Source: Xenococcus sp. PCC 7305 (GTDB lineage Bacteria; Cyanobacteriota; Cyanobacteriia; Cyanobacteriales; Xenococcaceae). Taken from it: a stretch of DNA of 64,000 nt. The stretch is from the NCBI RefSeq assembly GCF_000332055.1, contig NZ_ALVZ01000228.1, positions 1-64,000 on the forward strand, in the 5' to 3' direction. The translations under genes and the position numbers were made by a program. This document shows, one piece after another, positions 59,641 through 64,000 of the stretch. The first letter of the stretch is position 1. Every line of letters starts with the position of its first letter. Under the pieces are notes generated by a model. It saw only the letters and a list, made by a program, of their open reading frames with translations, had not been told where the DNA came from and searched no databases.

Positions 59641-60684
59641 ATGACAAGACTATCTTTTATTCCGAGGAATCTCAGAATATACATTCCGATCTTGCTTTTC
59701 CTGTTGGCGATTATTGCTGCACTTAGCATTCCTCAGCTGCGATCGCCGCAAGTCGATTCTACTGTAGAACCTGTTGTTGAATTAGTTGCCTTGCGCAGTG
59801 AGCCGATTGTCCCGATCCCTCTGGAACTGGAATTAGATCAAAAGAGAGTAGCTCTTGGCGATCGCCTGTTCCATGACCCAGCGCTTTCGAGTAACGATAC
59901 GATTTCCTGTGCCACCTGCCACAGAATAGATCAAGGGGGCACTGATGGCCTCGCTTTTTCCCAGGGCATGCTGGGGGCGAATACAGGGTTAAATTCGCCA
60001 ACAGTTTTCAATAGTGGATTTCACTTTCGTTTCAACTGGGATGGCCGAGCAGAAACCTTGGAAGATCAGATCGATGGGCCGATTACGGCAGAAAAAGAAA
60101 TGGGTGGCATGAGTTGGCCTGATGTGGTCAACAAACTATCACAAGCTCCTGAATATCTCAGTTCTTTCAATGAGATTTATCCAGAAGGAATTACCGAAGC
60201 TAACATTAAAGATGCGATCGCGATTTTTCAGCATTCCCTCTACACTCCCAACGCGCCCTTCGACCAATATTTGCGAGGCAATGATGACGCGATCTCAGAT
60301 CGCGCCAAAGAAGGATATAGCCTCTTCAAATCCTACGGCTGTGTGACTTGTCACCAAGGAATGTTGGTGGGGGGCAATATGTTCCAAACCTTGGGGGTTT
60401 TCGGTGACTATTTCGCCGATCGCGGGAATATCACAAAAGCTGATTTAGGCAGATATAACGTGACTCAAGATGATTTGGATCGCTATGTTTTCAAAGTCCC
60501 TAGCCTCCGGAATATCACCCTGACCGCACCCTATTTTCATGATGGCAATCCCAAAACTCTGGATCAGGCAATCAAGCTGATGGGCAAATATCAGCTAGGA
60601 GTAGATATCCCCCAACAGGATGTTGACTTAATTATGCATTTTCTGAGATCTTTGACAGGTGAGTACCAAGGTCAGCCATTGTAA
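59641..60684 (+). CDS. Di-haem cytochrome c peroxidase (MauG family)
   Basis: A 347-residue exported protein. Residues 11-31 are a signal anchor. Two haem c motifs: CATCH (Cys90, Cys93, His94) and CVTCH (Cys234, Cys237, His238). DPALSSNDTISCATCHR, FNWDGRAETLEDQIDGPI and FKVPSLRNITLTAPYFHDG are conserved in bacterial cytochrome c peroxidases, which reduce H2O2 in the periplasm with electrons from c-type cytochromes. All ligand positions are intact. Single gene; start ATG 59641. Confidence 0.9.
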   Translation: MTRLSFIPRNLRIYIPILLFLLAIIAALSIPQLRSPQVDSTVEPVVELVALRSEPIVPIPLELELDQKRVALGDRLFHDPALSSNDTISCATCHRIDQGGTDGLAFSQGMLGANTGLNSPTVFNSGFHFRFNWDGRAETLEDQIDGPITAEKEMGGMSWPDVVNKLSQAPEYLSSFNEIYPEGITEANIKDAIAIFQHSLYTPNAPFDQYLRGNDDAISDRAKEGYSLFKSYGCVTCHQGMLVGGNMFQTLGVFGDYFADRGNITKADLGRYNVTQDDLDRYVFKVPSLRNITLTAPYFHDGNPKTLDQAIKLMGKYQLGVDIPQQDVDLIMHFLRSLTGEYQGQPL

Positions 60685-60754: not shown

Positions 60755-62365
60755 GTGACGAGTTTCGACGACAATCAAACAGGCAGAAAATTCCTGGCTA
60801 CTTCTACTACTGAAAAACTGCTACTGGCATTTACAGTGCTGTTAATTTTGTTGAGTTCAGTTTATTTAATTAGTAAAAGTCTGACCCTAAATTTTGGGCA
60901 GTACCAGCAATATCGCAGCGCGATCGTTGAGTTACAAGAACAAGATTCTATCTTTAATCAGGAAATTCTCAAGTCTAGATATGAACTATTTGCTGATTAC
61001 GATCCTTTAGTTAGAAGTCTGGCAACACAAAAGACTATTGCTGCTCGACTACAAGATATTCCCGATTTGGGATTTTCTGATGAAAGACAAGCAATTGAGC
61101 CAATTCTCTCTGAAATTAGAACCTCGCTGGAAAACCGAGAAAATCTGAGCGAAAGATTCAAATCCCGCAATGCCTTGCTGAAAAATTCCCTGCGTTATTT
61201 GCCTCTTTTGACCACAAAACTAGAAGCCAAATTTGAGGCCCAAGAACAAGCTCAAATTTTGACTAGCGAGCAAATTTCCTCTTTGAGAACTACTCTTAAT
61301 AGTCTGATTCGTAATTTATTACTATATAATGTGGCCGCGGAGGAAAAGCTGGAATCGGACATCACGGCATTATCTCAAAGGCTTGCCCAACTCGATGTCC
61401 AGTACGAACTGAGCGAGGAGCAATTTCCCACCGAAATAGTTAAATCCCATGCCAACATTATCCTGAAACTCAAGCCTCAGATTGAACAATTAACCGCGCA
61501 ACTCCTAGAGCCCCTAGATCAATATACGAAGAGCCTCGAAGCAACCATTGACAATAGCTATCAACAGGCAGTTGACGAAGTTGGGGTCTATCGTCTGCTA
61601 ACTCTTTTCTGGTTTCTCATGCTGCTGATTGTTGCTAACTATTTCCTGCTGAAGAGATGGCAGCAAATCAACCCAGGTTTGTCTAGATACAAAAAGCAAA
61701 TAGGTAAACTGACAGCAGTTTTAACCGAGCTCTCCCAGTCACAACAGGTTGCCTCTGAAACTGACAACCCATCTGGATTGACCTCTGATAGTAGCGATCA
61801 GCTGCCCGATCACCTCTGGTCCCCTGGCGATGCCAGCTTAGCAACTCTGGCTACAGTGCCTTCAGCAGCATCAAAATCTGAACTGGTCGCCTTAGCAGAT
61901 CGCCCAGATGAATTAGGTCAATTGGCGCAGAGAGTTCAGGACATAGTAGGGAAAAGAGTTGAGAGTGAACAAGTTGCTGATGATGAAAAATCTCTGGCTT
62001 CTTTAACTGCTTGTTTGACCTTAATAACTCAAAATCGACAAAGGATGATTAGCCCAACGACAATAGAATCTCTCAAAAATCTCTTTGAGCAGGCGCTAAA
62101 GACTTGGGGCTGCCAACTAATTGATCTTCAGGGAAGTCTCGAACAGGTGCAGATTATCTTTAGCTACCCGCCTCAGGTTCAGCTATTACCCTTAGTCGCC
62201 CAGCTAAAAGCAGTATCGGCTTCTTACCTGGAGCAAAATTTGGGAGATATCATTACCAACATCAACCATGAAAATCAGATTTGGAGTAGTTCTTATGCCC
62301 TCCATAGCTGCGACGTTCCCAGCTCGATGATAACTGAGCAGTCAAGCATAACCAGTAATAAATGA
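60755..62365 (+). CDS. Membrane sensor (DAHL-like) with inactivated Y1 transposase-like C-terminus
   Basis: A 536-residue protein. A membrane helix at about 21-43 is followed by an extracytoplasmic four-helix domain (SAIVELQEQDSIFNQEILKSRYELF, DYDPLVRSL) like DAHL, then a second helix at about 280-300. The C-terminal 110 residues (412-520) resemble IS200/IS605 TnpA: SLASLTACLTLITQNRQRMIS against the first TnpA strand, LKNLFEQALKTWGCQLIDLQ against the helix and strand, and IWSSSYALHS against the LWxxSY segment. The HUH pair is Gln464-Val-Gln466, so it cannot cut DNA. It starts at GTG 60755 and lies 32 bases before an adenylate cyclase gene. Role probably in signalling; the fold call needs checking. 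Confidence 0.6.
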   Translation: MTSFDDNQTGRKFLATSTTEKLLLAFTVLLILLSSVYLISKSLTLNFGQYQQYRSAIVELQEQDSIFNQEILKSRYELFADYDPLVRSLATQKTIAARLQDIPDLGFSDERQAIEPILSEIRTSLENRENLSERFKSRNALLKNSLRYLPLLTTKLEAKFEAQEQAQILTSEQISSLRTTLNSLIRNLLLYNVAAEEKLESDITALSQRLAQLDVQYELSEEQFPTEIVKSHANIILKLKPQIEQLTAQLLEPLDQYTKSLEATIDNSYQQAVDEVGVYRLLTLFWFLMLLIVANYFLLKRWQQINPGLSRYKKQIGKLTAVLTELSQSQQVASETDNPSGLTSDSSDQLPDHLWSPGDASLATLATVPSAASKSELVALADRPDELGQLAQRVQDIVGKRVESEQVADDEKSLASLTACLTLITQNRQRMISPTTIESLKNLFEQALKTWGCQLIDLQGSLEQVQIIFSYPPQVQLLPLVAQLKAVSASYLEQNLGDIITNINHENQIWSSSYALHSCDVPSSMITEQSSITSNK

Positions 62366-62397
62366 CTAATAGACTAATGATTGAGGAGTGAACATAG

Positions 62398-64000
62398 GTG
62401 GCAATTGTAAATAGATTTAGTATCAAGTCCCGACTCATGGTTTTGCTGTTACTTGTGAGTTTGGGTTCGGTTTTGACAACGGGGATTTTGAGCTGGTTAC
62501 GATTTAGAAAGTCATTCGAAACCAGAACTTTTGCCCAACTAACTAGTATCAGAGCTTCCAAGGCCAATGAGATTGAGTCTTATTTGAGAAATTTGCGCAG
62601 TCAAGTCGAGATTCTGAGCGCCGATCGCATGGTGGTTTCGGCAATGGTGGAGTTAAACTCAGCCTACCAAGAACTGCAAAATCAGGTTATCCCAACGGAT
62701 TGGGCCAAGAAAATTGAGGATTTTTATGCCAAAGATTTTTTCCCCAGACTTGCTGAAACCACCCAAGAAGAACAGACTTTGTCTAACTACCGCCCGACAA
62801 AGCAGGTAGCTCAATATCTCCAGTATCACTACATTGCCAACAATTCTTTGCCCTTTGGCGAAAAGAAAAACCTCGCTGATGCCCAGGATAAGAGCGACTA
62901 TAGTAAATTTCATAGTCAATATCATCCCATTTTCCGGGATATTAGCGAAAAGTTTGGCTATGATGATTTGTTTCTCATTGATTTTAATACCGAAGAAATT
63001 ATCTATTCTGTGGAGAAAGAAACCGATTTTGCCACAGGTCTTCAACGCGGGCCCTATCGACGGAGTAATCTAGCGACAGTAGTTGAATCTGTCAAGGACA
63101 ATCCAGGGCAAGGTTTTGTTCAAGTGGTGGATTTTAAACCCTATGCTGCTTCTTTGGGCGCGCCGGCTGCCTTCTTTGCCTCGGCGATTTATAATGGCCC
63201 CCATATTGTGGGGATTGTGGCAATCCAATTGCCCGTTGATGAACTGAATAATATTTTGACGAGTAACGAACAATGGGATGGGTTGGGGGAAACAGGAGAA
63301 GTCTATCTGGTGGGGGCCGATTCTTTGATGAGATCGCTTTCGCGATCGCTAATCCAAAACCCCGAAGGATACGAAGCCAGTTTGCGAGATGTCGGTTTAT
63401 CCGATCGCAATATTGATTTAATCAAAAATTTAAACACCTCAATTCTGCTCCAACCTGTCAAAACTAAAGCCTCCAGCTCTGCGATCGCAGGAGTTGCCGG
63501 GACGGGTGTTATGGATAACTATCAGGGTATTTCCGTGCTGAGCTCCTATGAAGGACTAAAAATTGAAGGGCTAGAATGGGGCATCATTGCCGAAGTCAAC
63601 TTTGCCGAAGCCTTTGAGCCTTTGTATGGGCTGCAAACATCTTTAATTATCCTGGCTGCGATTATTCTCCTATTAGTTATTTTGCTGTCTAATATCGCAG
63701 CCCAAAATTTTGTCAAACCGCTGCAAACTCTGATTAATGCTACTTCTCAAGGAGAAGAGGGGCAAATGGCATCACCGATAAATTGGGACAGAAAAGACGA
63801 ATTCGGTCAGTTAGGGCAAGCTCTCAATAGCATGTTAGACAAAATTGCGGGACAAAGCAAACTACTTGTTAGTAAAGATAGCGAGAATAAAGCTCTCCTG
63901 TTAAATTTTTTACCGGATGTTGTGGTAGCTAGAGTCAAGCAAGGAGAATCAGAGATTGCCGATGCCGTGACCCAAGTTACTGTGCTATGGGCTAGCATCA
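62398..64000 (+). CDS. Adenylate/guanylate cyclase, 3' end outside window
   Basis: A frame open from GTG 62398 (GAGGAG at 62383-62388) to the window end, 534 residues seen. A membrane helix at 13-33 is followed by a long extracytoplasmic sensor domain of dCache type (about 34-405), a second helix at about 411-437 (TSLIILAAIILLLVILLS), HAMP-like PLQTLINATSQGEEGQ, and LLLNFLPDVVVARVKQGESEIADAVTQVTVLWASI, the typical start of a class III nucleotide cyclase domain. The catalytic metal residues lie beyond the window. It follows the transposase-like sensor by 32 bases and is probably co-transcribed with it. Confidence 0.85.
   Translation, partial: MAIVNRFSIKSRLMVLLLLVSLGSVLTTGILSWLRFRKSFETRTFAQLTSIRASKANEIESYLRNLRSQVEILSADRMVVSAMVELNSAYQELQNQVIPTDWAKKIEDFYAKDFFPRLAETTQEEQTLSNYRPTKQVAQYLQYHYIANNSLPFGEKKNLADAQDKSDYSKFHSQYHPIFRDISEKFGYDDLFLIDFNTEEIIYSVEKETDFATGLQRGPYRRSNLATVVESVKDNPGQGFVQVVDFKPYAASLGAPAAFFASAIYNGPHIVGIVAIQLPVDELNNILTSNEQWDGLGETGEVYLVGADSLMRSLSRSLIQNPEGYEASLRDVGLSDRNIDLIKNLNTSILLQPVKTKASSSAIAGVAGTGVMDNYQGISVLSSYEGLKIEGLEWGIIAEVNFAEAFEPLYGLQTSLIILAAIILLLVILLSNIAAQNFVKPLQTLINATSQGEEGQMASPINWDRKDEFGQLGQALNSMLDKIAGQSKLLVSKDSENKALLLNFLPDVVVARVKQGESEIADAVTQVTVLWASI

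Follow-up and report, generated by a model that had tools for sequence, protein, structure and literature searches.

What a transposase-like domain is doing at the cytoplasmic end of a membrane sensor is the question raised by a gene close to the end of the 64,000-nucleotide stretch of Xenococcus sp. PCC 7305 DNA analyzed here (the window). The gene is an ORF of 536 aa with a GTG start (60755..62365, + strand, as are all window features given below), and Pfam matches and orthologues give its product the layout TM–DAHL–TM–linker–IS200/IS605 TnpA (Y1) domain. A first putative TM segment (residues ~23-40, 60821..60874) is followed by a DAHL periplasmic sensor domain (residues 46-280, 60890..61594; Pfam DAHL 161.2 bits, helical in the AF2 model), a second putative TM segment (residues ~281-302, 61595..61660) and a cytoplasmic linker (residues ~303-412, 61661..61990). 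Both TM segments were read from the sequence as hydrophobic runs and are helices in the AF2 model. The linker is poorly conserved (14-56% pairwise identity) and modeled with low confidence (pLDDT <50 at residues 330-388 and 396-414). The Y1/TnpA-like domain itself occupies residues 413-519 (61991..62311) and lacks the catalytic residues. The sequence-only reading of this DNA had described a fusion to a membrane sensor, and this architecture, with DAHL flanked by two putative TM segments and Y1 at the C-terminus, bears it out.

The fusion is not confined to this gene. Searches of several hundred cyanobacterial genomes (391 of the order and 390 of the class, in overlapping sets) found seven DAHL-Y1 genes in six genomes from several families: two copies in the window genome and one each in Xenococcus sp. 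MO_188.B8, a Pleurocapsa MAG, Zarconia navalis LEGE 11467, a Prochloraceae MAG and a genome of another order (G295). The arrangement is thus rare and patchy among cyanobacteria; its presence in five genomes besides that of the window answers the concern that no other genome might carry it, and recurrence in independent assemblies rules out a recent IS insertion, a frameshift or an assembly artefact. The second copy in the window genome lies on contig C231 (L108:6631-7728), where an in-frame deletion joins residues 136-210 of a peroxidase to residues 216-534 of the DAHL-Y1 protein in an ORF that is still open; it is a deletion remnant of the peroxidase and fusion genes.

Several lines of evidence identify the C-terminal domain. 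Pfam Y1_Tnp matches residues 417-522 with E=3.1e-13 and 50.3 bits (gathering cut-off 23), and NCBIfam transpos_IS200 matches with E=1.2e-13 and 51.4 bits, just below its cut-off of 55. Searched against the PDB, a profile built from all seven fusion domains retrieved eight TnpA chains at E 1.6e-10 to 1.8e-5, the best being 2ec2 (1.6e-10), 2a6m (1.1e-8) and 2vhg (1.2e-8), while the only other matches were three ETV6 fusions at E 0.059 to 0.4. An AF2 model of the domain, built with four orthologues, has a core pLDDT >90 and the element order E-H-E-E-H-E (E18-26, H35-50, E55-61, E65-72, H78-97, E111-119). Foldseek searches with this model returned IS200/IS605 TnpA structures at ranks 1-29 and a RAYT (REP-associated transposase) at rank 30, with E 1.9e-8 to 1e-4 over these ranks and, for the TnpAs, TM ~0.7 and rmsd ~2 Å. 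Structure prediction had been named as the check that could yield a different fold, and it gave that of TnpA; chance similarity is ruled out by the Pfam, PDB profile and Foldseek results, and the resemblance is real homology. The domain shares with the IS608 and ISDra2 transposases the Y1 core fold and the W, S-Y and K positions, but it differs from them in having neither HUH nor the Tyr helix, in being fused to a sensor, in showing no sign of mobility and in forming a clade of its own.

The catalytic residues are lost in every copy. The change of HUH to Gln-x-Gln at residues 464 and 466, first noticed from the letters alone, is confirmed by HMM alignment, which sets Q464-V465-Q466 (62144..62152, codons CAG GTG CAG) opposite H64/H66 of IS608. 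Across the seven fusions these positions read QVQ, QIQ, RVQ, LIQ, EIK, YVK and QML. Gln-x-Gln, whose conservation had been put forward for checking, occurs in two of the seven, which rules it out as a conserved functional motif; the conserved trait is the absence of His, found at neither HUH position in any fusion. The helix bearing the catalytic Tyr (alphaD; Y127 and Q131 in IS608, whose catalytic roles are described in PMC5934647) is likewise gone in 7/7 fusions and replaced by an unrelated short tail with no equivalent Tyr (62312..62362 in the window gene). Inverted repeats of at least 12 bp within 60 bp were searched for in 61700-62500 and none were found, so that no IS-end hairpins flank the domain there. 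Some viral HUH Rep proteins function with HUQ in place of HUH, and one could suppose that reduced catalytic activity survives in the fusions too, where the second HUH position is Gln in four of seven and an acidic residue stands at the position of IS608 D61, also in 4/7. The other three fusions have K, K or L at that second position, and a Tyr helix missing from all seven makes surviving catalysis extremely improbable.

What has been kept is the core. The fusions retain the core positions T425, L477, K485, W510 and Y514, of which K485, W510 and Y514 are invariant, whereas H420, a TnpA-invariant position, persists in 1/7, the Tyr of the TnpA KYR motif is N or Q in 7/7, and the Arg of the TnpA SSR motif (490) and R493 are lost or unconserved. 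The net charge of the core has moved from +3.3 (sd 2.4) in TnpA to -0.7. This combination fits a retained scaffold from which DNA handling has been lost. TnpA and RAYT proteins bind hairpins, and the sequence-only reading had entertained a nucleic-acid-binding output; the dead domain would then be a membrane-tethered reader of folded ssDNA or RNA. The kept TnpA fold, the three invariant residues and a basic K/R/Q stretch left at residues 426-430 would suit such a reader, but the losses at 490, 493 and the KYR Tyr, a core brought to about neutral charge and the absence of inverted repeats around the domain in the region searched all count against it, and we consider it distinctly unlikely. Since the TnpA-typical Arg residues and the net positive charge have gone, protein contact is favored over nucleic-acid binding, and survival of the core fold through the loss of HUH, the Tyr helix and the TnpA-invariant basic residues likewise points to an output by protein contact.

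Phylogeny bears on how the domain was acquired and whether it is maintained. In a tree of the seven fusion domains and 38 TnpAs, which has long branches and an arbitrary root, the fusions form one clade with support of 100/100, as would fit a single domestication event. The TnpAs most similar to them are IS200/IS605 proteins of cyanobacteria that end with W-x-x-SYFIASCGG-VTVSTLKRYIEEQ; the fusions resemble these YFIASCGG-type proteins as far as SCGG and have none of the Tyr helix that comes next in them. In two genomes, G509 and G446, the DAHL protein stops at the Y1 border with no Y1 remnant, and in the DAHL tree this pair groups with the G295 fusion (99/95). Forcing all fusions into one DAHL clade was rejected (p-AU 0.00026, under a constraint that also moves locus L023), which, with the G295 grouping, rules out that all fusions form one DAHL clade and that G509 and G446 lack Y1 primitively. 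A single Y1 clade combined with this DAHL grouping argues for one gain followed by loss in the G509/G446 lineage. As the domain was lost in that lineage and the second copy in the window genome has decayed, it is dispensable there.

These losses suit an alternative in which the Y1 domain is an inert C-terminal passenger left by an old IS insertion and slowly decaying, and the fast divergence and long branches of the fusion domains would suit it also. Pairs of the five full-length fusions share 27-43% identity in Y1 and more, 41-63%, in DAHL; divergence of this order in Y1 would also fit a relaxed, half-used domain. Yet Y1 is more similar than the linker preceding it in 9/10 fusion pairs. Within Y1, differences are fewest at codon position 2 (0.28-0.43) and, in nearly all pairs, most frequent at position 3 (0.49-0.69), and four-fold sites in identical residues agree about as often as chance would give. 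A domain that stays in frame with position 2 least divergent while four-fold sites approach randomness is constrained; an unconstrained stretch at such divergence is not expected to stay open or to keep this codon pattern. Open reading in seven genes of several families in the face of synonymous saturation, the conserved core positions and the clean ending of the G509 and G446 ORFs at the Y1 border without a remnant therefore speak against a passenger, an explanation we think unlikely.

The neighborhood of the gene bears on what the receptor may read. Directly upstream lies a di-haem cytochrome c peroxidase gene (CCP_MauG, 59641..60684; Pfam CCP_MauG 181.7 bits). The fusion gene keeps its place beside such a gene across genomes: a CCP/MauG gene adjoins 7/7 fusions, as a truncated fragment at the window-genome paralog. 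The wider family behaves similarly: of 61 distinct DAHL loci, 54 have a CCP/MauG match in the flanking sequence retrieved with them. Throughout cyanobacteria (DAHL loci L023-L117), DAHL and CCP/MauG genes neighbor each other while the output domain varies. Elsewhere these outputs comprise a histidine kinase, a class III cyclase, an MCP-like domain and PP2C, as classed by single-seed searches in which many kinase scores were weak and some long C-termini went unclassified. With the adjacent di-haem peroxidase gene that marks CCP/MauG-linked DAHL sensors, the window protein is thus one variant among them, and its unusual part is the output. The kinase, cyclase, MCP and PP2C sensors share its periplasmic domain and peroxidase neighbor, but the other DAHL sensors classified end in a known output or, in G509 and G446, in nothing, whereas the fusion ends in a dead transposase. 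In several clusters there are, in addition, genes for a PstS-like binding protein, a Rieske protein and a channel of the MscS type that carries a cyclic-nucleotide-binding domain.

The sequence-only reading placed the fusion directly before an adenylate cyclase gene, and this held in part. The gene downstream (62398..64000 in the window, ending beyond it at 64908; L107:7399-9909), recognized by domain search and alignment, does encode a class III cyclase-like protein, with a dCache-HAMP head and a globin tail, but in all six cluster copies the two metal Asp and the transition-state Asn/Arg that class III adenylate cyclases carry have been replaced. With these residues replaced the protein is not expected to act as one or the other member of a normal catalytic pair, and an active adenylate cyclase as partner is unsupported; from its residues the gene is predicted to encode a conserved pseudo-cyclase. 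Its globin tail (L107:9541-9909) has Tyr at the position of the proximal F8 His of 3ubc, as do all four copies (L107, L109, L111 and L113, the latter three by alignment). The clusters of G509 and G446, which have no Y1 tail, have a pseudo-cyclase without the globin tail, and this co-absence hints that the two tails touch, although phylogenetically it counts as one event. The proposed search for the same fusion beside cyclases elsewhere bore out the recurrence of the fusion but not a constant cyclase-like neighbor: the gene is absent at the locus in the Prochloraceae cluster and beside the window-genome remnant, so the pseudo-cyclase cannot be the only target. The better-conserved partner of the fusion is the CCP/MauG di-haem peroxidase rather than the cyclase-like gene. 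As a separate observation, MscS-like channels that include a cyclic-nucleotide-binding domain are encoded beside, or within ~11 kb of, a pseudo-cyclase gene (L109:1490-3079, L111:1586-3109, L114:1058-2530 and, in the window genome, a 39% identical channel at G000:C228:75333-76772).

Taking these results together, we propose a host membrane receptor that has domesticated a TnpA domain as its cytoplasmic, non-catalytic output, a proposal that, as a whole, we regard as evenly balanced between right and wrong. The periplasmic DAHL domain would most likely sense in what state the neighboring di-haem peroxidase is; in several genomes a PstS-like periplasmic binding protein is encoded alongside, and its state may be read too. 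The model for such reading of a separate periplasmic protein is TorS, which reads TorT. The AF2 model of DAHL weakly resembles the sensor domains of McpS, PilJ and TorS (TorS E ~1e-3, TMt 0.46-0.66), and both systems would have a helical periplasmic sensor; TorS, however, is a kinase, while the partner at the fusion would be the peroxidase or the binding protein. The signal would then pass via the second TM segment to a dimer of Y1-like domains, which would act by touching another protein, the co-encoded dCache-HAMP-pseudo-cyclase-globin protein being the most plausible one. The identity and fold of the Y1 domain, its lost catalytic residues, recurrence, single clade and constraint, and the peroxidase neighborhood are computational results; the peroxidase as stimulus, the dimeric contact output and the pseudo-cyclase as target are inferred. 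TnpA is itself a dimer with an active site built in trans (PMC5934647). Sharing of the active site in this way, and the presence of intact TnpA genes in the same genomes, would also permit a dominant-negative role in which the tethered dead monomer takes active TnpA as its dimer partner and so keeps it membrane-bound; such anti-transposase action would leave the association with a periplasmic sensor and a peroxidase unexplained, the fusion domains differ strongly from the resident TnpAs, and we judge it very unlikely. Service of the Y1-like domain as a signaling output is plausible. That it is a new output type, conveying periplasmic peroxidase state across the membrane to the pseudo-cyclase-globin protein through contact between two dead cytoplasmic "enzymes," is possible, though we think it rather doubtful.

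Domestication of Y1 transposases has precedent. RAYT or TnpA_REP proteins are presented in PMC8266576 as the first domesticated transposases of prokaryotes; these free proteins retain HUH and Tyr, and several of their subclasses occur with REP sequences (PMC6006769). The window protein is like them in that a Y1 domain is kept by the host at low copy number, but it is no stand-alone Y1 protein with HUH and Tyr, having lost catalysis and become the tail of a receptor. The literature searched, with most subscription papers outside it, gives no account of a dead Y1 domain as a receptor output, and no matching description was found in that on DAHL sensors, MauG-linked sensors or dead Y1 transposases; such absence is not proof of novelty. 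While RAYTs retain their catalytic residues and act on DNA, here a Y1 domain was apparently captured once by a signaling receptor, stripped of catalysis and kept in several cyanobacterial families, which illustrates a route from mobile-element enzyme to non-enzymatic receptor part, within a peroxidase-linked cluster that includes a putative pseudo-cyclase. DAHL-Y1 proteins may also carry the name "IS200/IS605 transposase," which would be a likely annotation error.
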